Assembly (NCBI GenBank): GCA_022925895.1
Contig: JAKSYS010000632.1
Span: 1-36,708 of the forward strand
Length of the DNA: 36,708 nucleotides
Direction: 5' to 3'
Origin: Fragilaria crotonensis
Taxonomy: Eukaryota > Bacillariophyta > Fragilariophyceae > Fragilariales > Fragilariaceae
Below, piece by piece: positions 2,301 to 36,708 of this stretch. The notes under the pieces were generated by a model that did no database searches, was not told the origin of the DNA, and saw only the letters and a program-made list of their open reading frames with translations. Each line of letters begins with the position of its first letter. Within the stretch, counting starts at the first letter, position 1. The position numbers and the translations under genes are program-made.

Positions 2301-2680
2301 GGCAGTTTCGGCAACAAGACTCCCAACAAGACGCTCGCAATCCAACGCTGTTGTCGCAGTTGTTGTGCCAGTCGTTCGTCGGAAGATATTCCGAACACGA
2401 CGCACTCAACGCCGTCGTCACAGTCGTTTGGCAGATATTCCGAACTCAAGCAATGCAGGCAGACGCCGACAGTGCGTTGTCTGTTTTACGACAGCTTCTG
2501 CAACACAAGAACGCTCGCAATCTGACGCTGTCGTCGCAGTTGGTCGTTGTCACTAACGCTCGCAATCTGATGCTGTCGTCGCACTTGTTGGTCGTTGTCA
2601 CTAACGCTCGCAATCTGACGCTGTCGTCGCAGTTGGTCGTTGTTCACCAACGATTGCAGACAATGAATAGACTTCCACAG
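2300..2680. repeat. 45-48 bp minisatellite and degenerate GTCGTCGCAGTTG repeats
   Basis: ACGCTCGCAATCTGA starts at 2511, 2556 and 2604, so the period is 45 then 48 bp, the difference being a TTG insertion. The preceding 200 bp is built from looser GTCGTCGCAGTTG-like pieces, so the array grades out of the 161-bp satellite beside it. Confidence 0.8.
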
Positions 2681-2699
2681 CAGTAATGTTGGTGTGAAC

Positions 2700-3738: not shown

Positions 3739-5031
3739 ATGTCGTCGAGCGCGGGAAAAAGAGGCTCCAGCAATCAAGGTGGTGGCAGTCGTGATCATGG
3801 ACATGGAAAAGGTGCTGGGCCTCCAAACGCAGCGCCAGTTACAGTTAGGGGGCAATCTTCAAACTGGCAAGGAAAAGGATCACCATCGCCTTCTGGCAAT
3901 TCGCAAATGATACGACGGAGTCAAGCTGCAACGTTGTCGCCCAGCAGAACCCGCAGTCAACAAGATGCAGCAACATTGTCACCCATGATCATGACCCGAA
4001 GCCAAACTGCAGCATTGTCACCCGTGATCATGACCCGCAGTCAAGCTGCAACAGCTGGTCGACATGCTGGTTTCACAAATCAAGGAAGTGGAGTTGGAGG
4101 AGGAATGTCTGGTAGATCACAACAGGAACGACAACAACTGCGACGACAACAAGAGCAACGATATCTACAACGACTTCAAGAACAATTTCAAGAACAACAA
4201 CGGCGACAGCAAGTTCAACAACAAACACCACAAGCAGCAACAACAATAGGAAGGCAAGACGATATTGCACACGATTTAGGAATTCACACATGCGAATTGG
4301 TGCAAGAAGCGTCACAACGGGAGGATAGCAGCCGCACTGCATTGACGAAAACAGTAAGGAGAAGATTGGAAATGGGTGATCATGATGGACTGACAAGAAC
4401 TAAGCTTAGAAAAGTAAGCCAAGAGTTCATGCACGACAAGGTGGTCAAAGAGCTCTTATTTCCGAAGCAAAAGTTTGCTACTCTGGCTGAACTTGACTTC
4501 AGCAACAGTCCACACTCAATTTGTAGGTTCATGGCGAGCAAGCTCCAGATAGAAGGCGAGGATGAAGTGAAGACTTGGTGGGATGGAGCCAAGAAACATG
4601 TTAATGATGCACTGAAAAGACATAGAAATAATGTCATCAAAACCATCAAACAACTTTTTAGAGGTGAGGAACGTGCATATTGCTCAGGATGGTGGTAACT
4701 GTGATTGACTTTCTGTACTGACAACTGCTATTTCACAGATAAAATACTGGGGCGAGATGGATATGCTGTCACGTTTGAACTTAATCAGATTGCTGGAATG
4801 AGGAGTCCAGCATCTAAAGAAAGATACATTGACTTCCTTGACTGCCTTGTCAAGGCTGTCGTCGGGTACAGCAAGTACATGGAGAATCGCACAAGGCAGC
4901 CTCTGAGTCAGTGGTTCACACTGACGGACGAGGCCTTCCTGATGGTGTGCATCGAATCGTACATGACAAAGTGGAGGCATGATTGGATGGTACAGAGAAT
5001 GGGACCTCCAGCCACAATGCCACCGCGATAG
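3739..5031 (+). CDS. Two-exon protein of unknown family, copy A
   Basis: I do not recognise a named family. Exon 1 is 3739-4663, a 75-nt intron (GTGAGG...TTTCACAG) spans 4664-4738, and exon 2 is 4739-5031, giving 405 aa. I start at MSSSAGKRG; an upstream Met adds seven residues. The N-terminal half is low complexity: SQAA.LSP repeats, then a Gln/Arg-rich tract. The conserved core begins at FPKQKF (about 241), includes ICRFM and a Trp pair (280-281), and ends in a basic helix RHRNNVIKTIK before the splice codon at 309. Exon 2 carries GMRSPAS, LDCLVKAVVG and LTDEAF (about 370). Copy B at 34816 shares all of these and the same phase-1 intron. The basic helices suggest nucleic-acid binding, which is inference. 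The family may be transposon-borne. Confidence 0.65.
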
Positions 5032-9183: not shown

Positions 9184-10545
9184 CTAATTCAAGCGACTGC
9201 TATTCGACCTACGCAAAAAATGTTGTTGTATAGTAGGTCTTGTGAGACCTGCATCGGCAACCAAAGAATGTAATCTGTCCCTCGGTAAAGCTCGACCCTC
9301 GCTCCGACTCACATAGTCGTATTGTCGCTGCCTGTTGTAGCGACCATTTTGGCCAACGTCATCAAAGTGATTCCCCCCATCCAGTAATTGTTGAGGAGCC
9401 ACGTCACGACCTGATTCCGAGTTCAGTGTTGGCACCAGTGGGACAGCCCCAGTCATCTCATTCCTCCATTCATCACTTGCGGTTGATGTAGGAACATCAC
9501 CGTCATCTGCATCTATACAGAAGTTGTGAAGTTTTGCAAGAGCACAAACAAGTGCAACAGTCTTCTTGAGTGACACTCGCATCGGAATTGCACTCCTTAG
9601 AATTGCCCATCGATGAGTCCAAATTCCAAACGTGCACTCAATTCGAATCCTCAACTGCGAGTGATAGAAATTGTAAGCACCTTTAGTACCGCCAGAGACC
9701 GCAGAATAGGGGGTTGCCATGTATGGTGTATCGAGATATGCGTTGTCGCCAAATAAACACAATCCTGGAGCAAGCAAACCGTTCTCTAACTTGTGGAATA
9801 GGGATGACCCCTCGAATGCAAGAATATCGGAGGTGGAACCGGGGTATAAAATTGACAGATCAAGAATCTTACCGCGAGCATCACCTACTGCTTGGCAGTT
9901 GAGACCAAATTTGTGCTTTCGCCCGCAAAAGAATTTCCCGGCATCGCAGCCAGCCTCAATGCAGTCCTTTAAGGATGGCTTGTGAATCCAAATGAGTATG
10001 CCATCAATGGCTCCAGCACAGCACCCAAAATTAGCAGCCGACACTTGGGAGAAGCCGTGAGCTATTGCATGTTGAACTTCGTGATCATCAGGGTAAACAA
10101 TCTTGAGGCTCGGGTGAGTATTGACCGCATCCACGACATACCAACAGCTGTCTATTGCATCAGTGAGAGAAACACCGAACGTTGTCATGATATCATAGAT
10201 TGACCCACCAGCGAACCAGCGTAAGGCACATGCCAGGCGGACTTCTGGCAGGATAGGTCCATTGTGCAAGTGATTCCTCGAACTTTCTTTCTTGCCAGAT
10301 GCTAAGACAATGCCAGGACGTAGTAAAGTGGCAAGCCTCTTAAAAGTGAAGTAGCTCATTCGGTATGCCCTCCGAAAGTATGCGTCACCGAGCTCTCTGT
10401 AGATTTCGAAAACTGACCTTCGTCGGCGCTTTCGAAATGTCCGTCTGGTGTGCATAGTAGAGAATCCTTGCGTTGATCTTGTCCGTCGTCGTTTTTGACG
10501 ATGGCGGAGTATTTGATGAACCACAACAGCAGAAGCATTTGCCAC
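9184..10545 (-). CDS. PIF/Harbinger (HARBI1-like) DDE transposase
   Basis: A 453-aa intact transposase of the DDE_Tnp_4 / HARBI1 type. It should cut and join the terminal repeats of its element in the nucleus. The catalytic residues are visible: Asp181 in GAIDG, Asp267 in FGDNAY and Glu303 in RIECTFG, a DD35E spacing. GRKHKFGLNCQAV and PGSTSDILAF between the Asp residues, and HNFC near the end of the domain, are family hallmarks. The N-terminal part has a basic run (RKRRRRSVFEIYREL) and FRRAYRMSYFTFKRL, the helical region before the catalytic core. The C-terminal 80 residues are variable. It is single exon, and I see no frameshift. The gene ends 45 bp from the end of the convergent accessory gene. 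Confidence 0.95.
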   Translation of the reverse strand: MANASAVVVHQILRHRQKRRRTRSTQGFSTMHTRRTFRKRRRRSVFEIYRELGDAYFRRAYRMSYFTFKRLATLLRPGIVLASGKKESSRNHLHNGPILPEVRLACALRWFAGGSIYDIMTTFGVSLTDAIDSCWYVVDAVNTHPSLKIVYPDDHEVQHAIAHGFSQVSAANFGCCAGAIDGILIWIHKPSLKDCIEAGCDAGKFFCGRKHKFGLNCQAVGDARGKILDLSILYPGSTSDILAFEGSSLFHKLENGLLAPGLCLFGDNAYLDTPYMATPYSAVSGGTKGAYNFYHSQLRIRIECTFGIWTHRWAILRSAIPMRVSLKKTVALVCALAKLHNFCIDADDGDVPTSTASDEWRNEMTGAVPLVPTLNSESGRDVAPQQLLDGGNHFDDVGQNGRYNRQRQYDYVSRSEGRALPRDRLHSLVADAGLTRPTIQQHFLRRSNSSRLN

Positions 10546-16422: not shown

Positions 16423-19328
16423 TTAGTATGCATTTGTACCCTCATAGCCAAACAACATGATGGAAGAAGGAGAACGAGAAAGCTTCCCTTCGTTCTCTTC
16501 ATCAAAACTCTCGTTTTGATTTCCATCCTCGTGATGGAGAGGCATGAAATAGTCAGAGCCAGCCAAACGCTGGCTGATAACTTTGGTAAGAGAGGCACGA
16601 AAATCCTCGAAATCAGTTAATTCCTCATCGAAATGGAAGTCATCAGCGTAGGAACTCTCGTGCTCAGTACCACAGACCTCACGTCCTTCGGATGTAATAA
16701 GCGGATCGTGGAGAAGACCTGCAGGGCGAGTGAAATAGCAGCGCCCGAAAGCAAATCTGTCAGAAGTCTTAACAGGCAACTCCGGATGGAGATGAAAAGC
16801 GGCAAACTGCTTAAGCGCAACCACGTCAGCCATAACCTTCGCTCGCTCTTGTTCTTCTTCAGCATCAAGATACTCGGGTGCAGAAGCGCGGGTGAAATAG
16901 TTACGACCACGAGCCCTCGCATCTGTTGACTCAACAGGCTTCTCGGGGTGGAGGTGAAATTCAGCGTGCTTCTTCAAAAGCGCAATCTCCTCGAAGATAA
17001 GGGCGCGCTCTTCGGCATCCTCGCAACTGATCTGTTCGGGCGCAGAGTAACGAGAATAGTAGTTGCGCCCGAATGCAGTTGGGTCAACTTGCTGGCCAAC
17101 AGGCTTCTCGGGATGGAGATGGAATTCGGCGTGCTTCTTGAGCAACGCAACCTCTTCCAAGATCGCTGCGCGTTCCTCCGCATCCTCGTAGGATATTTGC
17201 TCTGGCGCAGAGGCACGAGTGAAGTAGTTGCGAGCGCAAGCCATGGAATCAGTAACCACGACAGGCATCTCTGGGTGAAGATGAAACGTAGCAAACTGCT
17301 TCATCATGGCGGTTTCAGCCAGAATCTTCTCGCGCACTTGCTCTTCTTCAGCGTCAAGGTACTCAGATGCAGACGCGCGCGTGAAATAGTTACGACCACA
17401 AGCCATTGCGTCCGTCGACTCAACAGGCTTCTCGGGGTGGAGGTGAAATTCAGCGTGCTTCTTCAAAAGCGCAATCTCCTCGAAGATAAGGGCGCGCTCT
17501 TCAGCATCAGCGAGACTGATCTGTTCCGGCGCAGAGTAACGAAAGAAGTAGTTGCGTCCAAATGTAGTCGCGTCAACTTGCTGTCCGACAGGCTTCTCGG
17601 GATGGAGATGGAATTCGGCGTGCTTCTTGAGCAACGCAACCTCTTCCAAGATCGCTGCGCGTTCCTCCGCATCCTCGTAGGACACTTGCTCTGGCGCAGA
17701 AGCACGAGTGAAGTAGTTGCGAGCACAAGCCATGAAATCAGTTACTGCGACAGGCATCTCGGGGTGAAGATGAAACGTAGCAAACTGCTTCATCATGGCG
17801 GTCTCAGCCAGAATCTTCTCGCGCTCTCGCTCTTCGTCAGCATCGAGATACTCGGGTGCAGAAGCGCGCGTGAAAAAGTTACGACCACAGGCCATCGCGT
17901 CTGTTGACTCAACAGGCTTCTCGGGGTGGAGGTGAAATTCAGCATGCTTCTTCAAAAGCGCAATCTCCTCGAAGATAAGGGCGCGCTCTTCAGCATCAGC
18001 GAGACTGATCTGTTCCGGCGCAGAGTAACGAGAATAGTAGTTGCGCCCGAATGCAGTTGGGTCAACTTGCTGGCCGACAGGTTTCTCTGGATGGAGATGG
18101 AATGCAGCGTGCTTCTTAAGCAACGCAGCCTCTTCCAAGATCGCTGCACGTTCCTCGGCATCCTCGTGGGACACTTGCTCTGGCGCAGAAGCACGGTAGA
18201 AGAAGTTGCGAGCACAAGCCATGGAATCAGTTACTGCGACAGGCATCTCGGGGTGAAGATGAAACGTAGCAAACTGCTTCATCATGGCGGTTTCAGCCAG
18301 AATCTTCTCGCGCTCTTGCTCTTCTTCAGCGTCAAGGTACTCGGGTGCAGAAGCGCGCGTGAAATAGTTGCGACCACAGGCCATCGCGTCTGCTGACACG
18401 ACAGGTTTCTCGGGGTGGAGATGAAATTCAGCATGCTTCTTCAAAAGCGCAATCTCCTCGAAGATAAGGGCGCGCTCTTCAGCATCTTCGCAACTGATCT
18501 GTTCGGGCGCAGAGTAACGAGAATAGTAGTTGCGTCCAAACGCAGTCGCGTCGACTTGCTGTCCGACAGGCTTCTCGGGATGGAGATGGAATTCGGCGTG
18601 CTTCTTGAGCAACGCAGCCTCTTCCAAGATCGCTGCACGGTCCTCGGCATCCTTGTAGGACACTTGCTCTGGCGCAGAGGCCCGTGTAAAGTAGTTGCGA
18701 GCACACGCCGTGGAATCAGTTGCAACAACAGGACATTCGGGATGTAAATAAAAGGAAGCAAAAGTTTTCAACTGCTTGGCTTCCTCGAGAATGCGAGCTT
18801 GTTCATCGCTTTCTTCAACGGATAGTTCCTCAGGTGCCGAAGCACGCGAAAAGTAGTTACGAGCTTTAGCATATGGATCACTAGTAATAACAGGATTCTC
18901 TGGATGGAGATGAAAGGAAGCATATTGCTTGAGCATCATAGCATCAGCTAAGATCTGATTGCGTTCATTCCATTCCTCGTCGAATTCTGAAGGTAGAGTG
19001 TTAGTTGATTTAGCGATACACGAAAGTGCATGCACAAATTCGCAGCATTTAAGAATGAAGCTCATAGACGCCATCAAGCGCAAACGACCAATCCAATAGC
19101 ATCAGACGTACCATCTTCGGTATCATCCTCAGAATCAAAAGAATCAGTATCAGAGTCATGATCGTTGGACTCTTCAAGGTGGACCTCGGCGGTGTTGAGG
19201 TCGTAGGTTGTGACGGTTTCGTCACTTTTGGTGGATTTACGTCCCCTCGCGATTTCACTCGACCAGTTAACCTCCTTGGAAGGAGCTTTGGTCTTGGTGC
19301 TAGCGCGAGAGGACTGAGAGTTTCCCAT
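16423..19328 (-). CDS. Predicted N-myristoylated tandem-repeat protein (HLHPE repeats), two exons
   Basis: Exon 1 is 19328-19112, a 125-nt intron (GTACGT...CCTTCAG) covers 19111-18987, and exon 2 is 18986-16423. The phase-1 junction gives TED|EFDEEW and a 926-aa protein. The N-terminus MGNSQSSR fits an N-myristoylation signal (Gly2, Ser6), so membrane attachment is plausible. An acidic DHDSDTDSFDSEDD stretch follows. Then come 14 repeats of about 54 residues, each roughly ILEEAALLKKHAEFHLHPE, KPV and RNYFTRASAPEQIS. Three repeat types alternate (PVGQQ, PVESTD, PVAVTD). The C-terminal tail is acidic and unique. I do not recognise the family and assign no function; a scaffold role is possible. 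It is convergent with the SRP40-like gene, 115 bp apart. Confidence 0.85.
16740..18970 (-). repeat. Coding higher-order repeat, 489-bp period
   Basis: On the plus strand CGCAGAGTAACG recurs at 17041, 17530, 18019 and 18508, exactly 489 bp (163 codons) apart each time. Each 489-bp unit holds three sub-repeats of about 54 codons. Units differ at few positions, so the array has been homogenised or expanded recently. Confidence 0.93.
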
Positions 19329-23390: not shown

Positions 23391-24726
23391 GATGTACCTC
23401 ATTTGCTCTATATGCCTGTTGGTGTCAATATCTACCATCAAACTTGGCAGAGACATGTCAGCTACGCTCTATTGATCTGCATTTGTAAAAATCTTTTGGT
23501 TTTTTTCTGTATGTTATAACGTGGGTCCTCAATCCAAGTCACGATGGCATTCGTAGCGCCTTAAGTGCATTCATGGAGGGGTACATCCTTAAGTTCAGCA
23601 TTCGATTGCGTGCCGGTGGGCTTGGCAATGTGCCCCACAGGAGGTAGCTCCATCCTGAATTTGCAAATGAACATTGTTAATCATCACTGGATACCACTGA
23701 CATTGCACTACTGGACGCTACCTTACGGGAAAGAGTAGTATCTAGTCGTTTGGGTCGACCACCCCGGAGCGAGTGAAGTGGCAGCACGTTGCACCTTCAT
23801 GGCAATTTGAGTTCGTTGTTTGGCAGCTTGAATCAACACCAATGATGCAGGTCATTGAGTGCAAAGTGTAAGTGCGACCGAAAGCGACTCGTGTCGTGAA
23901 GAATGTGAAGCAATTAATGAAATTCAGGAAAACTCCATGTGATCTCCTTCCCAGTAGCAAGTGCTCACCCTCGGGATGTAGGCATGAGAACGGGAGGACC
24001 ACGTTTGTCCACGGGGAGGTATATGCACGAATACCGAAGAATGGTATGCAATTTCCTAGGCAATGGCATTCTGCGTTCGTAGTATGTGGGGCGTACTAGT
24101 TGGATGAGTTGGACAATGATGTGGAGATGCTTTTGGAAAGATAAACCTTGTACCTCTATACCCTCATGATGATTGATGACTGGCAAAAATGCAATTGCAG
24201 TAATGCATCAGGAAGCCCATATCTGTGGTTTGAACATAAATCTGTGGTCATGCACCAAGAAAATATGTATTGACCGCATATATCTAACAAAATTTATTCG
24301 ATTTGAAAATCACTTAGGTTTGTTTAGGTATGTTAACATGATATCTTTGTTTTGTACATGGTTATATTTACAAAGGTCTTTTTATACTTATTTGTATCTA
24401 TGATAGAAATATTTTTACAACAATATCCTATTACTGTATGATTCCTCGGAAAGTTTACATACTATCCACTCTTTTGGTCAGATGTTATGTATCTTCTACA
24501 TCCTTTCCGCACGTTCGTAAGCTTGACGGACGTGCTTCCCTTTTTTCATCGGTTGTTGTTCATGCTTTTTCGTGTATCTCCTACTAGTATGATACAATCT
24601 TCGCGCCATATTTTCCAACAGAAAACTTAACTTCATTTTTGGTGTAAACCATCTTACTGACTTGGCATCATCACCAGCCACCACTGCCATTAGTAAGCAA
24701 GACGTGGAAGTTGATCAGTTTTCATA
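23391..24726. other. Intergenic, AT-rich, no supported gene
   Basis: Non-coding spacer, with possible further scraps of the decayed region to about 24100. AT-rich from 24200 to 24480. The stretch just before 24727 should contain the transposase promoter and, if the element is complete here, its left end. I could not identify a terminal repeat. Confidence 0.4.
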
Positions 24727-26343
24727 ATGGCACCAAGCAGCACATCATCAGCATCTCAAAGTGGAGCCTTCACATGTTTCAATGTCAACTGCTATGCTAC
24801 GTTCAAAACCGAACGAGGTCTTCGTCAACATTTATGGCGAAGTGCTCCATGTCGCGATTATATGTCGGAACCAAGGCCTCTTGCCGCTAGCCTTGACGTA
24901 GTTCATGAGAGTACATGGTCCCGGCGCTTGGGATACGGCGTTGAATCTTCACGTCTAAATCCTTTTATGAGTGCAGATCCTCCATCGTATGAGCCTTACG
25001 AAGTTTTTGACTACTCGGCTACTACTTGTAATTTTGACGCAGATGATGGCATTCATGAACAGGAGGTTGAAATGAACCAGAACTTGTCTACAAGAACAGG
25101 CATCGGTGACATTGCTATATCTTGCCCAGTTTTTCATGCCATGATGGAACGCCTTCAAGCGGGTGATCGCCATGCAATCATGGTATTGCATCATGATATT
25201 GAACATCGAAATATTGTGAATCTCCTCAAGCTTTTGGAGGATGCCCAATGTCCTGACTACATGTTGCAGAAGGTACTGCAATGGGCATACAATGCTAAGT
25301 TAGAGGGCTTTGATTTCAACCCAAAAGCTACAACACGGAAAGCCAACATCCAGTGGATGTACAAAGCTTTGGAACACTCACACAGAGGACTTCCTAAGGT
25401 GCTGACAGCGAATCTTGAAGATCACGACAAGGCTCAAGATATTATTTGCTTTGACTTTGTACCTGCATTATTGTCAATGCTGCAAGACGAGTCATTGATG
25501 GTGATGGAAAATCTTGTCATCAATAAGGAGTATCCAATGTCAATGTACATACCAACTGACAGCAAAGTTGGCGAGGCAAACAGTGGTTCACGTTATCGAG
25601 AATTGTACCAACAACTTGCACAAGGGAAGGATCAGCTGCTTGTACCAATTATAATGTACCTTGATGGCACCGTCATTGACAGCAAGGGGCATATTGATAT
25701 CTGTCCTGTGTCATTCACAACATCTCTTTTCACTGAGAAAGTTCGTCGTGATGTAAAAGCATGGCGCCTGCTGGGCTATGTTCCAGACCTGAACTGTGGG
25801 CGCTCTGCAGCAATGAATAGCTTTGCAAATGCATGTGCTGAAGAGAAAGGTCGCACTACTCGTAATTTCCATAAGGTCATGGATGTGATGATGGCAGGTT
25901 GGGTGAAGTGTCAAGCTGGTTTAGATGATCGTTTAAAACACGTACCACTGAAACTTGGTGACAGGTGGTTTGTTGTCGAACTTGTTTGCCCCCTGTTATT
26001 TGTCATCAACGATGGCAAACAAGGTGACCAACTTTGTTGCCGAATCAATGGCCATCACAGCAGTACATTGCGTCACCATCGTTCATGTGATTGCTTGTAT
26101 GAAGATCTAGATAATCCTGATGTTGAGTGCACATTCCTATCGACTGAGACAATCAACTACGCATCTCAACATGGCTCACAAGAGGAGCTCCGCCAGCTTT
26201 CAATTTACAGATGTGACAATGCCTTCAATCCTCGGAACGTTGCGGGTTTTACACCCATGCATGGACAGTACACTTTGGTACAATATTGCAACATTTTGAT
26301 ACGCTGTTCTGTATCAATTTTTTCAATATATGGAAATGGTTGA
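24727..26343 (+). CDS. CACTA/Plavaka-like transposase, N-terminal half (truncated)
   Basis: An uninterrupted 538-aa frame. Residues 17-42 form a C2HC-type zinc finger (Cys17, Cys22, His35, Cys42), as in Plavaka-type transposases, which often start with such a finger. The first catalytic Asp is most likely Asp313 in VPIIMYLDGT, preceded by EANSGSRYREL and followed by VRRDVKAWRLLGYVPDL, all expected in the CMC (CACTA) transposase core. The frame ends soon after YRCDNAFNPRN. In the related copy at 28.4-30.5 kb this point continues into the second catalytic motif, so here the C-terminal half is missing, replaced by an unrelated tail. The superfamily is judged from motif order by eye; KDZ-like transposases are the main alternative. 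Confidence 0.75.
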   Translation: MAPSSTSSASQSGAFTCFNVNCYATFKTERGLRQHLWRSAPCRDYMSEPRPLAASLDVVHESTWSRRLGYGVESSRLNPFMSADPPSYEPYEVFDYSATTCNFDADDGIHEQEVEMNQNLSTRTGIGDIAISCPVFHAMMERLQAGDRHAIMVLHHDIEHRNIVNLLKLLEDAQCPDYMLQKVLQWAYNAKLEGFDFNPKATTRKANIQWMYKALEHSHRGLPKVLTANLEDHDKAQDIICFDFVPALLSMLQDESLMVMENLVINKEYPMSMYIPTDSKVGEANSGSRYRELYQQLAQGKDQLLVPIIMYLDGTVIDSKGHIDICPVSFTTSLFTEKVRRDVKAWRLLGYVPDLNCGRSAAMNSFANACAEEKGRTTRNFHKVMDVMMAGWVKCQAGLDDRLKHVPLKLGDRWFVVELVCPLLFVINDGKQGDQLCCRINGHHSSTLRHHRSCDCLYEDLDNPDVECTFLSTETINYASQHGSQEELRQLSIYRCDNAFNPRNVAGFTPMHGQYTLVQYCNILIRCSVSIFSIYGNG

Positions 26344-26429
26344 ACATTTCCATTTAACAATATGCTTTTGTTCCAAATTTTTGAAACGAGGCACATTTGC
26401 AGTCTGGTCAATGATACACTGTTCACATC

Positions 26430-26560
26430 AGTACCCTAAGAGGATGCTCCTGCCTGCACACATTTCACATCAGTACACAAAATGATGCTCCCGTCTGCTA
26501 ACATTTCATGATGTTACCCCAAGACGGTGCTCACACCTGCACATTTTGAAGATATTTGTA
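26430..26560. repeat. Degenerate short tandem repeats
   Basis: Three loose copies, about 40-50 bp each, share CATCAGTAC, GATGCTCC and CTGCACACATTT-like words. Confidence 0.5.
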
Positions 26561-26581
26561 ACCATTTGTTGACATGAATGT

Positions 26582-26597
26582 ACCATGGTACCATGGT
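26582..26597. repeat. 16-bp perfect palindrome
   Basis: ACCATGGTACCATGGT is its own reverse complement. It lies just downstream of the truncated transposase in non-coding DNA. Confidence 0.7.
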
Positions 26598-26739
26598 TAC
26601 AGTTGATCATTACGTTGCTCATTGTGTATTTCCATTTAGGTTTATTTAAGCAAAAGTGTTATGCATTCCACAATGAACGAGGACATTCAACACGAAGCTA
26701 CATTTCTTGTTCAAGCACATATCACTCGGTATGAACATG

Positions 26740-27120
26740 TCACCACCCGACCTCTAAACGGAGAGTGACTTCACATTCATCCAATCACCACCTCTGAATG
26801 GAGGGTGGCTTCATGATGTCAGAGCAGCGTCATGATAGCAGTCCGGACAGGACGGTGCACTCTGATGTCCACTCAACCACCAGCGGCGGCTTCACGACAT
26901 GCAATCATGACATGAAGAGCGTGTACACGCCAGTACAATCACCAGCACCTCTAATGGAGAGTGGCAATCATGACATGAAGGACGTGTACACGCCGGTACG
27001 ATCACCACCTCTAATGGAGAGTGGCTCACATCCGTTGGCTTCATATCGGTCCTCATTGAGGGATGGCTTCACGTCGGGCCGAGTACCACCTCTAAATGGA
27101 GAGCGGTTTCACGTCCGTCT
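26740..27120 (+). repeat. CACCACCTCTAATGGAGAGTGG interspersed repeat array
   Basis: The word ACC(T)CTAAATGGAGAGTGGCTT, with variants, recurs at about 26750, 26788, 26943, 27003 and 27085. Two neighbouring units, beginning AATCATGACATGAAG at 26903 and 26966, are 63 bp apart and nearly identical. A 136-aa frame (26798-27208) runs through the array, giving HDMKSVYTPVQSP / HDMKDVYTPVRSP. I regard it as repeat-derived, though a 63-bp period (21 codons) preserves frame. Confidence 0.65.
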
Positions 27121-27208
27121 GATCACCAATCCTTACGCGGAGGGTGCTACCGGTAGGATGTTTCATACCTTCTTGCCGGTTGATTGTCGATTTGGATTTG
27201 AACCCTGA

Positions 27209-28419
27209 GACTCGCTTTCCTGTACCATGCATAGCCACTCATCCTCTGCTTTTGTTGTGAAAACAGGTGTAAGTTAAGGTATGAAAACCCTTGAACTGCA
27301 CAACCGCGATGGCCAAGTGCTTCCAATGGAAGTTGAATGAAGAAATGCATCAGGAACAAGTCAATCCATCCGTATCACTGAGACTAGAATATGCTGCATA
27401 CAATTAGTAGTCAATATAAATCCAAATAAGATAAGGATTTGTTAAATGGTACGACAATTACGTACAAGTACATAAGAAGGAAGATAGTCAATATTGGATA
27501 TTGTTCCTGTGTATATCTCTTATAGTCGCTAGTACTATGGAATTTCAATTTTAAATCCAATTCAGTCTCCAGCGTATTAAGTTGTTTGCAGCTTGTCGCA
27601 TCATTTATGAAATTAGCTATGTTATAAATCTATGTACATGTACATGAAGGCAATAGCAAACTAAATGCATACTTGTATTGATGTGCAAATTGGAACTAGC
27701 TTTTCATTCATTATACAGATAGAGAAGAGCATACAGTGACTCTCAGTGTTTGCTGGAAGAATATTTGAAACGCAGACTGCGAGTCGTGTAAATTTTAAAT
27801 TATCAAAATGTACAAGTATGGACACACACTATGATCATCGTATCAAATTCCTGCTGAAACGTTGAGAGCCAATACAACCAGTACGCTTGTCACCAATGAG
27901 ATTTTGAATGCTTCAATCATCAGTCCGTAAAAATTGTAAAATCAATGGAAATCATCATCAACCAATAAAAAGATATTCAAACAACAACGTTGTCAGCATG
28001 TTCAAAATTATGGCGCAATTCCATTAGAAAAAACTTAGAAGAACCCACCACAAGGAGAACACAAAATGAGCGATGCTGGATTTCAAAACAAGATTAGCAT
28101 TCAAGAGACAGCAAATAAAGGCAAATGTAGAGCATGCATGTGAACGTTGTGGTGGCACCAAATGCGGTAAGCAGATGAACAGGACAACAAAAGGTAAACG
28201 ATATGGAACGCAGACAAACACAAGTGACTGGACAAAATGGATGTAAAGTGAATGTACTAATCGAAAGCTTCTTGTCACAGCGCAGGTAACCAAAATCCAG
28301 TTTTAGAGGTGGTCAAGGACGAAATTGAGCGCCACTGTTTGCAACCCAAAATTCACACATTGCCACTCTCCATTAGGGTGGGCAATCAGCAGGATCCATG
28401 ACTGCGCCAAGAAGACAAC
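27209..28419. other. Intergenic, AT-rich, no supported gene
   Basis: Long non-coding stretch between the two transposase halves. An 89-aa minus-strand frame (28024-28293) is hydrophobic but has no supporting feature. CCACTCTCCATTAGGGTGG near 28366 is an inverted copy of the repeat word found at 26.7-27.1 kb. Confidence 0.4.
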
Positions 28420-30534
28420 TCAAGATATTATTCCGCTTTGCCATGATCTGCATTGGAGGTGCAAGTGATTGATGGTGATGGAACTTGTCATCAATAGGAG
28501 TTGAACTGTCAGCGGATACAGTGCATCAATTTGCTTCCTTGCTAAGTAAACTGAAATCTTGTCGGTCATCATTCTTATCCTGTGCAAATGTCTCTCCAAT
28601 TACAGGTGGTGGGCAACAAGCTGGCCAAGGACAGAGCAGTCTGTTGCACTGCATTCTGTTGAAACAGACACGGTGCTGGTTGATCGTGACAACGCAAAGA
28701 TCAACAAGAAGAACTGCAAATGACAAACTGTAACATTTAGGTATGCTTCTAGAATGCATAGCACTTTTATAAGGAGGGTGATGATGGCAGGTTGGGTGAA
28801 GTGTCAACTGGTTTAGATGACCACTGAAACTATACAGGTGGTTTGTTGTTTTGTTGTGAACCTGTTATGTCATCAGCGTGGCATACATGAAACAGGAACA
28901 AAGATGACCTACATATGTGTTTGCGTTACATTGTGCACTTTGTATGCAAATATCTGCTTTGTCAAGATGTACCTGAAATTGGTACAGTGCTACGGACTGT
29001 ACAATCAACTACAAATCTCAACATGGCTCACAAGGCATCATCAAATTTCAATGTACAGATGTGACAATGCCTTCAATCGTGTTCAGATGGGGCAAAACCC
29101 CACGGCATCTTCATGTGTGCAGTTATTGATGTGATGCATACAATTCAACATGGCATCATCATGTATGTTCTCGATTGCTTCAAAAAAGCCTCAGTGTTCA
29201 GTCACTGGCGACGCTTGACAAAATGGCTTTTATATTTGACACAACGTGCTGTCAGAGTATTCGCACCTCTTTCCCCAGAACTGATTTTTCCAGAGGAATA
29301 ACAAACCTCACCATGGTGGAATGCTCTGAACAGTCGGGGCATTGTTCCTCATTTCTTTCTTCATTATGCAAGCGGAAGGTTGGGAAGTCTTCGATGAGCA
29401 TTTTCTTCAATTGGATGCCGTGTTGGGGACTATGGAAAGCCTTTTATGCTTTGAGGCCTGGCTTGATCAGTACACCTTTTGGGATATTGGAGATCCAGAC
29501 GGAGAGGCATCACAAGCTGAAGCAGCAATTGCTTCTCTGATGAATCTCATCACCACACATCTTCCGAGACACGCTGGCAATGGATGGAAACTGTCAAAAT
29601 TTCACGAGATCAAGCACATCGTACGATTTATTGCTGCGTTTGGAGCACCGCGTGGTTACAATGCCTCCGTCCTGAGGAACATCACAAGGCACACGCCAAA
29701 CGTCCTGGTAGACGTGCACAGAAGAATGTGGACACCATTGACCAGCAGTGTGGCCAAAATTGCGGACGCACTCGTGATTGATACTATGCACGCGATGTTC
29801 CAAGAACGACCTGTTTTGAAGACATCATCACAGCATACTAACCGTAGTCAATTACTGGCTGCTGACGATGTCAAGATCCTCTGACGAGTGAGTCAGGGTC
29901 TGGAACGTCATATTACGTAAGGTCATACATTGACCCTATGGATGATAATCGATTGTGTCGTGATGTAATCTTTGACACTCAGACCAGGGAGACATCGAAC
30001 TGGAAGATAATCTTGCACTGTTCATTTTGCAGACTTACAGTGACTCCGATCTCGACGACAATGGGGTGGGCGGTATCTGGTGCCGCACAGAGTACCATAA
30101 GTACAACATTGAAACAAAGGAGGAGATGGTTTCTGTTCGCTGTCATCCCAACTTCAGGGAAAGGGTATTCCTGGTATGATTGGGCTCTCATCCGCTATGA
30201 AGATGATGAGGGAAATGAGATGGAGTACCCATCTCGCATTGTGAGTTGCATACCACGCCACAGTTGCTTTGGTGGAATTGAAACCACCACGTTTGACCTC
30301 ATTATTCAATGTTGTGGCAAACCAACTGGGCGTGAGTCCTTCCTGTTCACTGAGTGGACATTCGAGAAGGAGTTTCATGTTGTCTCCTCAGAAGCCATTG
30401 TTGGCTTGTGTTTTGTCCCAAGCAACCCTGACCTCGCTGACTCTGATGTCCTTGTTGTAACAGATAGGGACAAATGGGCATCAATGTTCTACGATTCAGC
30501 AATGGTTGATTACACCATCAATGGTCAAAATTAA
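28420..30534 (+). pseudogene. CACTA/Plavaka-like transposase, middle remnants and C-terminal half (frameshifted)
   Basis: DNA from 28421 to 29080 is an eroded copy of 25434-26240, sharing TTGATGGTGATGGAA, ATGGCAGGTTGGGTGAAGTG and CAGATGTGACAATGCCTTCA in order. From 29105 the C-terminal half follows: GIFMCAVIDVMHTIQHG (second catalytic Asp in GAT at 29128-29130, followed by His), then TNLTMVE, EGWEVFDEHF and KLSKFHEIKHIV (probable catalytic Glu at 29606-29608). EEHHKAHAKRPGRRAQK (about 29675-29730) lies in a shifted frame. The last part, YSWYDWALIRYEDDEGNEMEYP (to 30534), ends the protein. At least four frame changes occur, so it is inactive. The stop lies 12 bp from the convergent dioxygenase-like gene. 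Confidence 0.7.
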
Positions 30535-30546
30535 GTAGAAACAATA

Positions 30547-32905
30547 TTAAACCATCGGTAACTGGGACATTCCATACATGATGATCCGTGTCTTTGGGGC
30601 AAAGAACGTACCATAGATATTTCCACTCCGCGAACCTGTCATGGATGTACCATGCCTGATCAGGCGGCCATCCCATCCAATCAGGACACCATCAGACAAT
30701 TTGATGGCAATTCCGTTGTAGTCCCGATCCGATCCTGGGAATTTCCCCTTCATGTTCGGAAGGACAAAGTACCAATCCTCAGTTGTCCCAGGGTGATCTT
30801 CAGTCCAGATCGTAAACCCCTGACTGGCATCGTTCACATCGTAATGTGTTGAATTTGCCAAATTAATTGACAAGTCCATGCTGTGCGTAACGCGGCACAT
30901 GCCTCCGTCCATGCCACCAACATGCTTCATTTCAGAATCATTTTCCAAGTCCTGCATCACTCTGAGGGCAGCCGGGATAGTCACTGATGCAAGCTTTGCC
31001 GCAGCTTGCACAGCCTTCAACAATACCGGGGCAGCATCCACAGTTGATGATGTCACATATGGCACCTTGTTCCAGCATTTTGTGATGCGGCTTCCAATTG
31101 GATGCATTGATCCGAGGTCTCCATTGCCAGCCCTTGCTCCCGTGCTGCTCTTCTGTTTTCTCACCAAGTTGCAATGCCTGTTGATGTCGGTCAGAAGGTC
31201 CTCACAACCTGATCCAACAACGTTTGGGAGGTACCGGATTTGAACCACAGAACACCGATGGAAAGCAACTTCGCCCGCATTTGCGGGTACAGTGACATCA
31301 ACGTGCAAGTCAAGCTCACCATATTTGATTGGATTGATAACAAATGTCGTTAACGGGTCAATGGTCTTGTGCAGAAATCCCGGTGCATAATGGCGACCTC
31401 CACGTTTGGCTGACCTTGATCGCGAGAACGCATCTTGGAATGTCTCAGCTCGAAACTTATGATCAGCACTCAACAACTCATCCTTCTCACCCACAACATA
31501 GTCAGGAGGAAGTCCAGGTCCTTCCTCATCCATCAGTTGCTTCGTGCAGTGAATAGATCTCACAAGTGATCTTGGCATCACCCCCATGATCGCATTGGGA
31601 ATTGGCAAGAGGTTTGTGGCGGAGCGCCGAATAGTCCACTTCCAAATGGAACACTTATCAGCATTCGCAAGGTGTGAAACATAAGATCCATCACCGAAGA
31701 AGTTACCATGAGAATCATGCTGAAGTCGTAACCAGTTTATGTCCATTGGGACATGCGAATTAAGGACCCCAGTCGATCGTGAGCGCCTCTCCCTGTGGCA
31801 ATAGAATATGCCAGCTTGGGGAAGGAGGACAATGCATGCACGGTAGAAGTTATCGCTGTTATTCTTCCTGAAGGGCGAGAAGAAAAGCATTTTCATCTCT
31901 AACAGCGATTGCCAAATTGACAGCATCAACATCATCAAATAGACAGACATGCACGGACTGTCACAGGCATGGGCGTCATCTTTCCTTTTCCTTTTCAAAT
32001 CCATAGGACCACTTCTCGAGAGAACACAATCCATGACGATCAGGTCGAGATCGGAATGACTTTCCCCATGACTATACATTTCATCAGGATGTTTGCAGCG
32101 CTTGAGCATGACATACTCAGTACCAAACACATGTTTCAGGGACGAGTCAACCCAATTGATGGGTCTTGCAAATCTTCTCGTCACAAAATGCCGATGGACC
32201 TAGAGCTGACGCCGCCGCCACAACTGCAGGTGGTATTGGAACAGACGCGGCGTTGCCCTTCTTCCGCTTTTGCTTCTTCCGTTTTCGGAGAGGAGGTGGT
32301 CGAAAATTGTTGAACATGACCATGAAAGGAGCAACAGACTGCAAAGGCAGACACTTGGCTATTACATTTGCAACTTGAGTGTGACTTGCCATAGAAAGTG
32401 ATGGATGCTCTCGAAGCAATCCAATCCCCAAACCTTTCGTTTCCTTGATTATCTTCCTCGCAGCCTTGACTTCTTTCCTCGTTCTCCCTGTCCCCTGATC
32501 AGGAAAATTGCTGCCGACAGCGGCATCAGCTTCCATGGTACCGCCAAGTGTGGTAATAGGCACAGACATGGTGTTTTCCGTCAACGGAATGGTCTGTCGA
32601 TTGTTCACTCTTGCCAAAATAATGGCACGGGAGAGCTCACCTGGCAGAGTGCGTTGAAATGGTCCATGAGGGCGAGCACGAATTGGGCGTTCACGCCAAT
32701 TGTTTTCCGCCTTCCCACTCTTTTTTTTCTTCTGCCGTGGTTTGGTGCTTTGGGATGAAGATGGCAACGTGGTCACAGCATCATCAACAGCACTAGTCGA
32801 TGAACCAGCGTTCTTCAATCCACCACTCACATTTGCCATCAAGACAGCCTTAGTAGACACAACCTTCAACTCAATCTTCACTTTAACTTTGAGCTCAACC
32901 ATCAT
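30547..32905 (-). CDS. Transposon companion gene with a dioxygenase-like C-terminal domain (one frameshift)
   Basis: Two overlapping minus-strand frames (32905-32147 and 32184-30547) form one protein of about 785 aa if one T is dropped from the TTTT at 32188-32185 (plus-strand AAAA). The join reads GPSAF|VTRRFARPINW. The N-terminal part is basic and low complexity (RQKKKKSGK, RPPPLRKRKKQKRKK). The C-terminal part looks like a double-stranded beta-helix: His and Asp of HYD (codons 30844-30846 and 30838-30840), WYFVLPNM, YNGIAIKLSDGVLIGWDGR, then a distal His in LIRHGTS (30652-30654), with basic residues following. That order (HxD...H) matches Fe(II)/2-oxoglutarate dioxygenases, including TET/JBP types found with some transposons. 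The call is by motif, so biochemical function is inference. It is convergent with the transposase C-terminus. Confidence 0.6.
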
Positions 32906-33163
32906 ACCTTGTCCTTCCTCAACGAATCAGACCTTCTTGCCAAAGTTGAGGTCTTTCCCTCTTGAATAGCCGAACATGGTAGCAGTTTTGAGAAAACTCC
33001 GCCTCGTCTTCCGACGATGAATCCTCAAACCATTCCTTTGTCAACGTCGAACATGAAGTCGTTGAGCACAAAGTCTCTGCCATCATAGACAACTGGAGCC
33101 AATCAAAGTGAATGGGCCTCACAAAATTTGTCGTCAACGGTGGAGCAAGGAAGCCAACAGCGA

Positions 33164-33770
33164 GCAACACGCGAACACGACCGGTCGTTGTCGTAACCAA
33201 CAGCCAGCCAGGAACAACCAAATCGACGTCAGCTGAGCTTTATAGATGTAAACGCAAAGCTGAACGCGAAATTGGAAGCCAGCAATTGGCGTGGATCCAG
33301 ACAATGACAGTCTCGCAATATCTGTTATCAGTGGCGGAGCGACGAGAATTCTGCAACGTGACAGCCAACGAAGAACAAATATGCAACGACCTGTCGTCGT
33401 CGTTGTCACCAACAGCCAGCCGTGAACAACCAAATTGACGTCAGCTGAGCTTTATAGATGTAAACGCAAAGCTGAACGCGAAATTGGAAGCCAGCAATCG
33501 GCGTGGATCAAGACAATGACAGTCTCGCAATATCTGTTATCAGTGGCGGAGCGATGAGAAACCTGCAACGTCGTGACAGCCAACAATGAACAAATATGCA
33601 ACGACCTGTCGTCGTCGTTGTCACCAACAGCCAGCCGTGAACAACCAAATCGACGTCAGCTGAGCTTTATAGATGTAAACGCAAAGCTGAACGCAAAATT
33701 GAAGCCAGTGACCGGTGTGGATCAAGACAACGACAGTGTTGCAAAATCTGTTGCTCGTTGATGGTGGAGC
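33164..33770. repeat. 212-215 bp tandem repeat, about 2.7 copies
   Basis: CAGCCAGCC begins at 33201, 33413 and 33628, so periods are 212 and 215 bp. Each unit holds GACGTCAGCTGAGCTTTATA, a Cys/Lys-free low-complexity stretch, CTCGCAATATCTGTTATC and GTCGTCGTCGTTGTCACC; the third copy is partial. Open frames on both strands here derive from the repeat. It lies upstream of the dioxygenase-like gene and could be sub-terminal DNA of its element. Confidence 0.85.
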
Positions 33771-34815
33771 TTCCAAAACATCAATGCGATACGAAGGCAA
33801 TGAGTGTGACAAGGTTGTCGGGGTCAGGAGTGCCTAACAGTGAGTGTGTTGTAGTTGAGAAAATTTGACAAAAGAGACAACCGAATCGCCCAATACATTC
33901 GTTGTAGAAAACATACCAAAACTTGTGCATCACGTTGCGAGCAGGAATGCATACAAAGCTTCACTATGCTAAGCATAATTGCAAATTGAACATATAAGTA
34001 CACTAATATTTACTGATATGATTCACATGTAGAATGTGACAGTACTTTTGGTGCTTGTTTTTTATTGAGAAAAATTTGTCCATCCTGCGAAGTATTCAGT
34101 ACTACTAGGATGTCGTCTTATACCATTGAATCGCCAGTATAGACACTATGAATGTTCATAGCGATACTGCGAGCGGTAAATTGACTCGCTACTTCGCGTA
34201 AACGGCTACTTTGTCTAAGAAAGTACATGTTGGTGAGTGTATGCTACATTAACACCTGTTTAATATACCAAGAATTACATACAATGTATGATGAACATTA
34301 TTAATTCCAAACAACCACATTTTTATTAAATGCATATGATTATATATGCGCATATCAATTCATTTAGCGAGAAATGTATGTTATATATATGAATATAAGC
34401 ATAACATGCAACCACATTTTAATTCAACGCATATGATTATGTATGCGCATATCGATTCATTTAGCGAGAAATGTATGTTATACATACGGATATATGTATA
34501 ATATGCATATTCAAATGACAAAAAAACGAAAATTCAAAACATCTACATATTCATGCATATTTAAACTGATCATTTGAAGAAGTATATTGAATGTGAATAC
34601 TTATGTGTAACGTTCAGTATAAATCATCTTCCCCTAAGGATATGCAGATTTTTGAAACGCATGTGAATAACTTTGTCAAGACTTCGAAATATTGAACAAG
34701 TCTTGTGCTCGCACGAAAACAAAACAGAACACATGTCAGCCGAGTGATCTTGCCATATGCTGGCTTTTTGTTCTCGCGTTTAAAGAACACACCCAAAGAT
34801 CAGGGGGTAGTCTCT
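33771..34815. other. AT-rich intergenic region
   Basis: No gene seen before copy B. It includes the 97-bp duplication listed separately and many ATATGCATAT-like words. Confidence 0.45.
34315..34505. repeat. 97-bp tandem duplication
   Basis: CCACATTTT(T)ATT... starts at 34315 and again at 34412. The shared core ATTCATTTAGCGAGAAATGT is present in both, along with GCATATGATTAT and TATGCGCATATC. Two copies, with small differences, are AT-rich and non-coding. Confidence 0.85.
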
Positions 34816-36107
34816 ATGGCAGGAGGTCGTGGTCGAGCAGGACGACGACAACGTGGTGGAGGTGCTGGGAGAAGTGGTCGAGGAGCTAGAGGTGGTCCTC
34901 CTCCTCGTCCTCCGCCTCCTCCTCCGCCTCCTCCACCTCCTCCACCTGCTCCACCGGATCATGCGGCTGCTGCGGGCAACAGTGTTGAAGATTCTCCAGC
35001 TACACGAACACGACGACAACTGATGCTTGCGCTTCAAGCAGGTTCTAATTCTGCTGATTGTCATGATGGTGGTCGTGAGGGTCGCGGTCGTGCTGCTGAT
35101 GTCACAGAAGATTCTTCAACTAGAAGAAGGACGCGTCAACGACTTGCTGCAGCTTCTCATGTAAGTGCTCCCACTAATGCTCATATGATGCGAAGATTGT
35201 TTGCCGACACAGACGGAAGTGAGGAGGAGGATGATGATGGAGAAGACGACCCTGCTTATGATGAACCTGCTGTTGCAGCTCCCATTCATGCTCCAGCAAC
35301 AGACGGGCGACAAGTTGGTCACGAAGGGGTCATGCAATATGGGAACAGACTGACAAACGTGGGAAAAGATTGGTTGCTTGAGAAGTGTGTGAAAGAGGAT
35401 GTGTTTCCCAAGCAGAAGTTTGCAAATTTGAATGGTGATCTTGACTTCAGCAACAACCGTAATTCCATCTGCAGATTCATGGCGGAAAAAATGAAAGTTC
35501 AGGAAGCGGATGTGGAAGGTTGGTGGGAGAGTTCTTCGAAGAAAGCTGTCCATAAGAAACTGAAAAACCATAGGAACAATGTGATCAAAACAATAAAAAC
35601 AAAATTCAACGGTGAGATGGTGGCGACTGATTTCTGTGACATCATGCTGGCAATGCACTATTTCTTCTAACACCCTACTCTTCTCTGGCTGATATTACCA
35701 CAGATAATATACTAGCTGTAACAAACCGGGAATTCCGCTTGCGGAGCATCATGGGAATGAGAAGTCTCCCATCAAGGCCAGCATATGTAGAGTTGTTGGA
35801 TTGTCTTGCGAGGGCAGTGGTTGGACGTAAAGTGTACGTTGATAACAGGATGACTAAACCATTGAGTGAATGGTTTACACTGACAGACGAGGCATTTCTA
35901 CTGTTGTGCCTAGAGTCGTATGTACCGAAGTGGAATCGGGAATGGGCTCAAAGTTCTCGTGCTCCGATAGCAGCAGCAGCAGCAGAACGGCAACAAGGAG
36001 AGCAAAAGAAGGCGACGGTGAAGACGCATTGTACACAGGAGAAGCCGAGGAACAAAGCGCAGCTGGTCAAAGGATGGATTAGAGCGATTCAATGGGCTTA
36101 TGGTTGA
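34816..36107 (+). CDS. Two-exon protein of unknown family, copy B
   Basis: Exon 1 is 34816-35611, a 92-nt intron (GTGAGATGG...TTACCACAG) is 35612-35703, and exon 2 is 35704-36107, giving 399 aa. I start at MAGGRGRAGRRQ; the frame is open further upstream, but those residues look untranslated. The N-terminus has Arg/Gly-rich (RGG-like) sequence, a tract of 13 prolines interrupted once by an Arg further upstream, and an acidic DGSEEEDDDGEDD patch. The core matches copy A: FPKQKF (about 197), ICRFM, a Trp pair (236-237), NHRNNVIKTIK, the same split Asp codon at the intron, GMRSLPS, LDCLARAVVG and LTDEAFLLLCLESY. N-termini of the two copies are unrelated in sequence, so only the core is constrained. 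Function unknown. Confidence 0.7.
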
Positions 36108-36418
36108 TGTTTATCGGGACCGACAGGCAAATGGGGCCAACTTTGACAACATTTTCAGAGAGGAGATGATCAAAAGGTATGGCAAACAAAATGACAGCGC
36201 AAATCCAGCACGAGGGAGAAGATGATCAAGCAAATCCTGAAAATCGTGTTGTTGTAGTGTACAGTGACTTCAACATGGAACAGCTTATGGCTCATGCCAC
36301 AGCTGCCAGTGCTGTTGGCGCCGGTAGAGAAGCAACAAGAGGAGGGCAGCAAGAACAAGGTAATGATGATGATGATGATGATAGTCATACAGAAGAAGTG
36401 AGCAGAGTAATGGTATGA
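36032..36418 (+). pseudogene. Out-of-frame C-terminal segments of the copy B family protein
   Basis: After the exon 2 frame, segments homologous to those below copy A appear in other frames: YTGE (36032), TKRSWSKDGLERFNGLMVDVY with following EEMIKRYGKQND (to about 36223), and the frame 36179-36418 with VVYSDFNMEQLMAHA ending in an acidic DDDDDD run. The step between the YTG and TKRSWSK segments has the same size and place as in copy A, while other frame breaks differ. Confidence 0.55.
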
Positions 36419-36708
36419 AAATCAACCGTACAATAAATATACCAAACCGTTTCTACACACCTCCCCTAAAAACTCGCGGAATAAATTTCATGGAATAAAT
36501 TGAAAATATTAGCTGCGACCAATTTGTCCAAAGTATTTGTACATAAATATCCACAACATTTCTATATAAAGATGTCAATTTTGTAAATTAATACTTATAA
36601 CTTTCTAAGTAAAGAGAACAGAATCTGTCTCAAAAAACCAAAGAAATAATTAGAATGAAATATAAATAAATATTTAGAAATCACAGAAATGGGCTTCCTG
36701 ATGTGCTG
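36419..36708. other. 3' flank of copy B, partly shared with copy A
   Basis: AT-rich. It contains TTTGTACATAAATATC (36537-36552), identical to 5600-5615, and ends in sequence resembling 5705-5730. The window stops here, so the end of the duplicated unit cannot be set. Confidence 0.5.

Follow-up and report, generated by a model that had tools for sequence, protein, structure and literature searches.

DNA transposons that carry TET genes were reportedly described in fungi by Iyer et al. in 2014. Fungal TET-bearing transposons belong to 11 lineages that include Plavaka, and PlavakaB shows 5'-CATCA..TGATG-3' termini, target duplications of 2 or 3 bp and a Plavaka-like transposase accompanied by a gene of the TET/JBP fold (Kojima 2025, PMC12730594). 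Among algae, EnSpm-Plavaka transposons are described in a green alga (PMC12633428) and TET_JBP enzymes in green algae (PMC11065753); the parts of these reports cited here show no TET gene in the former and none of the latter in transposons. A diatom or other algal TET-carrying transposon was not found in the open-access literature searched, subscription papers being mostly outside that search. Here we describe a TET-like case in the diatom Fragilaria crotonensis. The window, that is, the whole stretch of 36,708 nucleotides analyzed (GenBank assembly GCA_022925895.1, contig JAKSYS010000632.1, positions 1 to 36,708 of the forward strand), holds a putative TET/JBP-like dioxygenase gene (30547..32905, minus strand) which is an accessory gene inside a delimited DNA transposon with PlavakaB-type ends (24206..36703).

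This locus resembles fungal PlavakaB in its ends, its short target duplications and its gene pair. As in the fungal TET transposons, the dioxygenase gene has been exchanged among transposon lineages and, as in the fungal PE type, it is weakly detectable by sequence, although the PE type has an HxE motif whereas the diatom family has HxD (PMC12730594). The diatom case differs from PlavakaB in its host, in the tail-to-tail order of the gene and the nearest transposase in every linked case, in the presence of a third gene, in a long extra N-terminal part of the enzyme and, in one lineage, in a long C-terminal extension. Unlike those of the fungal cases, the diatom partners include transposases similar to those of Mutator-like elements (MULE) with a SWIM finger; neither MULE nor Mutator is named in the main text of the fungal study (PMC12730594). 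Within the literature searched, the host lineage, an enzyme family that profiles miss and the constant tail-to-tail layout are new here, and the partner superfamily is probably new.

A transposon delimited by inverted ends

The element in the window is 12.5 kb long. Its left end is common, to the exact base, to the copies on contigs C30, C659 and C487 (contigs of the assembly are designated C and loci L), and its right end to those on C487 and C30. From end to end the C30 and C487 copies measure 9.65-9.66 kb, and the window copy is longer because it holds an insert of about 2.5 kb. A search with the shared pattern placed the left terminal inverted repeat, CATCAGGAAGCCCATATCTGTG, at 24206..24227 on the plus strand and the right one, CATCAGGAAGCCCATTTCTGTG, at 36682..36703 on the minus strand. 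These inverted ends, CATCAGGAAGCCCAT(A/T)TCTGTG, are alike at 21 of 22 bases, and their pattern has 16 mismatch-free occurrences in the genome (62.1 Mb, 881 contigs), whereas the reversed control has none. Inward-facing pairs of ends were found on five contigs: C594, C30, C487, C26, where they delimit 6.7 kb with no dioxygenase match listed, and C117, where they stand 22 kb apart, presumably because of insertions. Target duplications were identified in four of the five copies, namely TG in the window (24204..24205, with its partner at 36704-36705), AT in C487, CT in C117 and AAT in C26, a 2- or 3-bp match being expected by chance in an estimated 8% or so of cases per copy; no match was found for the C30 copy, whose contig ends there. 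Both the CATCA..TGATG termini and the duplications of 2-3 bp are those given for PlavakaB (PMC12730594).

The element contains a transposase gene on the plus strand, the TET-like gene on the minus strand and a third gene on the plus strand. The N-terminal part of the Plavaka-like transposase (24727..26343, plus strand) lies in a 538-aa frame whose similarity to the other copies stops near 26230. There the gene is split by an insertion (26231..28777, edges approximate) that is absent from C30, C659 and C487, and its C-terminal part follows at 28996..30534 on the plus strand in several frames (29342-29884 and 29938-30534, among others). A 345-bp segment first taken as duplicated around this insert was dropped, its two pieces being 68% alike. 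The original prediction, made from the sequence of the window alone, held that the dioxygenase gene converges on a CACTA/Plavaka-like transposase 12 bp away and that both likely belong to one element. This description holds: the plus-strand transposase frame ends at 30534 and 12 bases separate it from the dioxygenase frame, the transposase is Plavaka-like on Pfam evidence below the cut-off, and inverted ends and target duplications enclose the two genes.

Reading frames and active-site motifs

The dioxygenase gene of the window is broken by a frameshift into two overlapping minus-strand frames, an N-terminal one of 252 aa (32147-32905) and a catalytic one of 545 aa (30547-32184). We regard them as a single gene because one uninterrupted frame of 898 codons covers both parts in the near-identical copy on C659, and it is therefore the window copy that is broken. 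Residues 80-110, approximately, of the window copy are out of frame with respect to its relatives in an alignment of 25 rows (A1).

Toward the C-terminus the protein shows NSTHYDVNDASQGF, then DWYFVLPNMKG, then YNGIAIKLSDGVLIGWDGRLIRHGTSM, so that the motifs HYD, WYFVLPNM, DGR and RHGTS are all found in the window. The HYD motif (30838..30846, minus strand) comprises H449 (codon 30844-30846) and D451 (codon 30838-30840), which are predicted Fe(II) ligands, and the distal histidine H513 (30652..30654, minus strand) would be the third; the numbering follows the translation of window 30550-32190 on the minus strand. All three residues are invariant in A1. A profile search of 67 fetched gene loci found the H, D and H retained in 66 of the 66 loci covering all three positions, a count in which C674 entered as two loci, close copies are non-independent and some loci are decayed copies. 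Two basic residues near the distal histidine, R512 and K533, are also conserved.

Predicted fold

AlphaFold2 models were obtained for the window protein, with 25 family members (predicted local distance difference test score, pLDDT, 78; predicted template modelling score, pTM, 0.83), and for a member of the other clade of the family (pLDDT 80.5, pTM 0.87). In Foldseek searches against the PDB the window model had CcTet, CMD1 and TET2 on top (CcTet E 9.4e-9), followed by FTO and then by NgTET, and the second-clade model had TET2, CMD1 and CcTet (TET2 E 1.2e-8), followed by ALKBH3. With VIA-align, TET2 reached Z 17.0 for the window model (root-mean-square deviation 4.4, 278 aligned residues) and Z 17.3 for the second (4.4, 289 aligned), while CMD1, CcTet and NgTET gave Z 12.5-15.1. 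The best 16 entries of both lists were TET2, CMD1, CcTet or NgTET, and after them came ALKBH3, FTO, AlkB or PHD2, with Z of at most 11.4 and 10.8 in the two lists. Query-normalised template modelling (TM) scores were low, 0.24-0.37 among the TET/JBP rows listed, because the protein has much outside the shared domain. Among the best eight viral structure matches, two were annotated as JBP1/TET.

In the window model the HxD motif comes after strand 437-445 and the distal histidine just before strand 514-517, with strands 458-464, 473-477, 480-483, 494-497 and 502-506 between them. This order around the HxD and the distal histidine is the usual one for double-stranded beta-helix dioxygenases. Such a fold had been proposed from the succession of HYD, WYFVLPNM, DGR and a distal histidine; the succession is present in the sequence, the HxD and the histidine are conserved as described above, and the fold is supported by the two models, taken from distant clades, which find their best matches among TET/JBP structures and place the strands as expected.

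The Tet_JBP profile (PF12851) matched nothing in this genome, and the control genomes also gave no match. The Pfam search of the gene and 25 family members returned nothing useful (five unrelated weak families in one or two members, best E 0.022), nor did the PDB searched by sequence (best E 0.13 and 0.51). No homologues outside this genome were found in sequence searches of phages, IMG/VR contigs and GTDB contigs. Because no Pfam model matched above its cut-off, the family is best described as TET/JBP-like by predicted fold and not as a sequence member of Pfam Tet_JBP. It shares with TET2, NgTET1, CcTet and CMD1 the closest predicted fold and the HxD...H triad, and differs from these enzymes in being transposon-encoded and multicopy.

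The gene family and its linkage to transposases

A protein search of the genome, in which the best 80 of 415 candidates were scored, gave at least 94 family matches that merge to at least 72 places. In the match table, 42 of the 94 rows are stop-free and cover at least 400 residues. A tree of 33 rows takes in 33 of the 38 loci L001-L038; L007, L012 and L038 were omitted for their shortness, and L009 and L037 because they are frameshifted and lack the C-terminal part. It falls into two clades, one of 13 rows and one of 20, both with full support. At L017 and L019 (on C829 and C122, in Plavaka-like elements) the dioxygenase frame runs into a long C-terminal extension, and, with E values as high as 1 allowed, the complete frames of these two loci had no Pfam match.

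Transposases were searched with three queries, the window protein, a diverged Plavaka-like protein from C829 and a MULE/SWIM-like protein from C63. The linkage count used all 94 gene rows, 80 of 86 and 60 of 107 window-type rows, 41 of 60 MULE-like rows and 50 of 55 C829-type rows. A transposase lies within 6 kb in 43 of the 72 gene places (16 window-type, 21 C829-type and 6 MULE-like). At every one of these 43 places the closest transposase converges on the dioxygenase gene, tail to tail with it; as background, stretches no more than 6 kb from a copy of the gene make up 1.5% of the genome. The 77 omitted transposase rows were tested later and left the count of places unchanged: 17 lie no farther than 6 kb from a copy, of which 16 are convergent and belong to places counted before, and one (C518:33048-33251) has another orientation. 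Flanks were fetched for six of the other 29 places, and four of the six (C279, C341, C160 and C183) contain a convergent transposase, Plavaka-like in C279, C341 and C160 and MULE-like in C183, with extra pieces in the other orientation in C160. In total, 47 of 72 places have a transposase close by, always with the nearest partner tail to tail, and the homologues follow the arrangement that had been pointed out in the window.

At L092 (C22:17382-19148) there is a second dioxygenase copy near the C22 copy and on the same strand, with no transposase within the 5.5 kb read. L042 (C518:33.5-34.6 kb) is a remnant of a diverged Plavaka-like transposase, on the opposite strand just outside the C518 element.

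Partner transposases and exchange of the gene

Concerning the identity of the partners, the C30 transposase is 24% identical (E 1e-38) to the diverged Plavaka-like protein of C829 (locus L058). Proteins of the L058 type match Pfam Plavaka (PF18759) with E 5.6e-4 and 19.7 bits, below the cut-off of 26.3, and window-type transposases do not match this Pfam model. PlavakaB transposases are of the DDE type, with C(2)C and H(3-4)H motifs ahead of the final E. In an alignment of four proteins (A3), D369, D499/D504, C524xC526, H769x3H773 and E793 (L058 numbering) are conserved, and the window-type transposases are without the first Cys of the C(2)C motif.

Plavaka transposases were initially considered the sole partners, an idea that was replaced after C63 showed a MULE/SWIM-like one. 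MULE matches (E 0.0005-0.007) were obtained in four of five such partner proteins and SWIM matches (E 0.006-0.03) in three of the five, all below the Pfam cut-offs; the fifth protein gave only a ZSWIM RNase-H-like match (E 5e-4). As in Mutator-like transposases with a SWIM finger, the MULE domain precedes the finger in the partners of C63, C776 and C873, and the frame scanned in C108 contained the MULE part alone. The MULE/SWIM-like assignment is likely because the sub-threshold matches stand in the right order and a CxC...CxH motif is readable, although, unlike in established MULE transposases, every match stays below its cut-off. MULE transposons have inverted ends and target duplications of 8-11 bp. 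The partner transposases of C63 (L053:2972-6313, 1114 codons) and C829 (L058:376-3873, 1166 codons) are open frames, and elements with such frames may be young for that reason.

All three partner types are present in both dioxygenase clades. The partner label changes at least five times on the tree where two changes would suffice, and trees that force a single clade are rejected by the approximately unbiased (AU) test, both for MULE partners (p-AU 2e-5) and for window-type partners (p-AU 9e-44); these tests were picked after viewing the tree, the labels were taken from neighbours, and L035 and L029 have long branches. Between C594 and C137 the window-type transposases are 64% identical whereas the dioxygenases share 32% over the whole and 41% over the best part, a contrast which also points to exchange. 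The gene behaves like a cassette passed among transposon lineages, which include two diverged Plavaka-like ones and a MULE/SWIM-like one.

Selection on the catalytic domain

The ratio of nonsynonymous to synonymous substitution rates (dN/dS) was computed for 20 pairs. Thirteen of them, with dS 0.5-3.4, gave values of 0.16-0.26 over the whole region and of 0.06-0.17 in the catalytic, C-terminal part, although saturation is close once dS exceeds about 1.5 and some rows enter more than one pair. The catalytic part had the lower value in 13 of these 13 pairs, and the remaining seven of the 20 are near-identical or saturated. Other values are 0.10 for C30/C659, and 0.18 over the whole and 0.07 in the catalytic part for C160/C134. 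The broken window copy compared with C30 gave 0.72 over the whole, without differences in the catalytic part; C594/C659 gave 0.52, with zero amino-acid changes there; C76/C137 gave 1.1, with identical catalytic parts; and C526/C137 was saturated. The catalytic domain is under purifying selection and, from its low dN/dS, the enzyme therefore stayed functional during the diversification of the family.

Three other origins of the gene were considered and dropped: a chance open frame, in view of the family's occurrence in at least 72 places and of dN/dS; a virus-derived gene, in view of the lack of a viral sequence match in the collections searched; and an ordinary host gene, in view of the 47 of 72 places that adjoin transposases.

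Possible function and alternative explanations

We consider it fairly probable that the gene encodes a diverged TET/JBP-like Fe(II) dioxygenase which, as an accessory of the transposon, oxidizes methylated bases to escape silencing. The predicted enzyme would bind Fe(II) and a co-substrate, flip out a methylated base, most likely 5-methylcytosine (5mC), in the element's own DNA and oxidize it. This oxidation would remove or mask the mark that silences young diatom transposons and would so keep the transposase expressed. The computations show the place of the gene in the element, the fold class, the conservation of the triad, the selection and the exchange of partners; the substrate and the role in silencing escape are inferred. 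In the diatom Phaeodactylum, methylation is depleted when DNMT5a is lost, a loss that also correlates with overexpressed young transposable elements (PMC9998398). Thirteen matches to the C5-cytosine methyltransferase domain (best E 6e-67) occur in the F. crotonensis genome. That this genome belongs to a diatom is borne out by 19 matches to the silicon transporter family (best E 4e-193).

Several observations weigh against this proposal. Some of the methyltransferase matches may be bacterial contamination. In favour of the proposal, CG>TG changes among four near-identical copies of the element were found at 12 of 590 CpG positions, compared with 14 of 2714 for other C>T changes, but the CpG signal is small, 71 of the 93 singletons are on C659 and unpolarisable, and TG>CG changes are raised as well (15 of 1220, compared with 15 of 2635 for other T>C). 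All that follows is a lability of the CG/TG positions of the kind that methylation would cause. The CpG observed/expected ratio was 0.74 for the element and 0.91 for window 5.1-24.2 kb but exceeded 1 in some divergent copies, and it was set aside as too weak. Pfam Tet_JBP matched none of the 25 members, identity to TET structures is 6-14%, and in plain Foldseek the window model has FTO ranked ahead of NgTET, and the best 50 rows of the second-clade model do not contain NgTET. In TET enzymes, an arginine after the distal histidine anchors 2-oxoglutarate (2OG). The diatom family has no evident counterpart of this residue, R512 and K533 being the nearby conserved candidates, so that 2OG is only a candidate co-substrate. 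For the pair C285/C609, dN/dS was 0.72 over the whole and, even within the catalytic part, as high as 0.55. As for linkage, C22 and C131 are without a transposase in the flank stretch read, 23 of the 72 places were judged from searches alone, and a weaker remnant (C518:33048-33251) lies in the other orientation 4.9 kb from a gene copy that also has a nearer convergent partner. Seen from the transposases, a gene copy is within 6 kb for only 17 of 79 window-type places (which count the split window copy twice), 21 of 37 C829-type and 6 of 21 MULE-like places.

The enzyme could instead be a TET-fold base modifier of other chemistry or target that marks the element rather than demethylates it, for example labelling its ends for the transposase, by JBP-like thymine hydroxylation, CcTet-type oxidation of N6-methyladenine (6mA) or CMD1-like addition of an ascorbate-derived group. 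As regards function, the structural matches draw no line between TET2, CMD1, CcTet and NgTET, CMD1 and CcTet are known for such other activities (PMC12730594), and CMD1, which uses vitamin C, likewise has no canonical 2OG-binding sites (PMC11065753). Nothing specific speaks against this explanation, yet 5mC is a substrate of each of the four matched enzymes (PMC12730594) and a diatom is known to employ DNA methylation against young transposable elements (PMC9998398); we hold it to be unlikely. An AlkB/FTO-type demethylase or repair dioxygenase, and not a TET relative, would agree with ALKBH3 and FTO being the next structural matches (best ALKBH3 Z 11.4 and 10.8) and with the Foldseek rank of FTO above NgTET. 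However, the best 16 VIA entries of both lists are TET/JBP proteins whose Z exceeds that of the best ALKBH3 row by 1.7 to 6.5 units, with 238-301 aligned residues against 166-205 for ALKBH3, which makes this assignment quite improbable.

The two remaining alternatives concern the role of the gene rather than its fold. It might encode a non-catalytic, DNA-binding factor of transposition or anti-silencing which has retained the fold; the gene does lie inside the element, and there are transposons that encode a regulator of their own silencing, as with the plant Vandal protein (PMC12730594). Yet the metal triad is unvarying in the 66 loci, decayed ones included, and the C-terminal part has the lower dN/dS in all 13 informative pairs, so we judge such a factor improbable. 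A passenger host gene, spread by transposons without benefit to them, would fit the copies without a found partner (C22 and C131) and the relatives of the element without the gene (window 1.3-5 kb, and the C26 element with no gene match listed). Against it stand the tail-to-tail arrangement with a transposase in 47 of 72 places, the purifying selection between old copies and the presence of the gene beside unrelated transposases, and we give it very little credit.

If the proposed oxidation of methylated bases to escape silencing is true, the oxidation of bases by TET-type enzymes would be a weapon that transposons turn repeatedly against silencing by DNA methylation. The present case takes TET-type enzymes encoded by transposons beyond the fungi, into a photosynthetic lineage far removed from them and, probably, into a transposase superfamily unreported for the fungal cases. 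It suggests that a TET-like enzyme may serve algal transposons against silencing, as it may fungal ones. As a more tentative idea, diatoms could host their own radiation of transposon-encoded TET-fold base oxidizers, an anti-silencing cassette that the Tet_JBP profile misses and that is exchangeable between Plavaka-like and MULE-like transposons, with, possibly, a co-substrate anchor other than the TET arginine and hence a different DNA product. For epigenomic chemistry the family is a large and varied natural collection of TET-fold enzymes, and diatoms would be a tractable test system because young transposable elements are already known to become active there when DNMT5a is lost (PMC9998398).

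Other features of the element and the window

Three tandem subterminal repeats of about 210 bp (33177..33752) were recognized in the element from off-diagonal DNA matches. The third gene (34816..36418, plus strand), of no known domain, is represented in the window by frames 34705-35670 and 35739-36107, its end being set by the C487 frame. The elements on C30, C487 and C659 hold this gene as well, and so does, with 60% identity, the one on C121. No Pfam match near any cut-off was obtained for it.

A decayed relative of the element occupies window 1314-5031, with both of its pieces on the plus strand: a transposase remnant at 1314-1955 (DNA match 1735-1882) and a homologue of the third gene at 3718-5031 (DNA match 4459-4650). 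No dioxygenase match was listed between these two pieces. Elsewhere in the window, the minus strand encodes a DDE_Tnp_4 transposase of 453 aa at 9184-10545 (E 1.2e-22) and, at 16423-19083, an 886-aa frame made of repeats of about 40 residues (HAEFHLHPEKPV...ARNYFTRASAPE).

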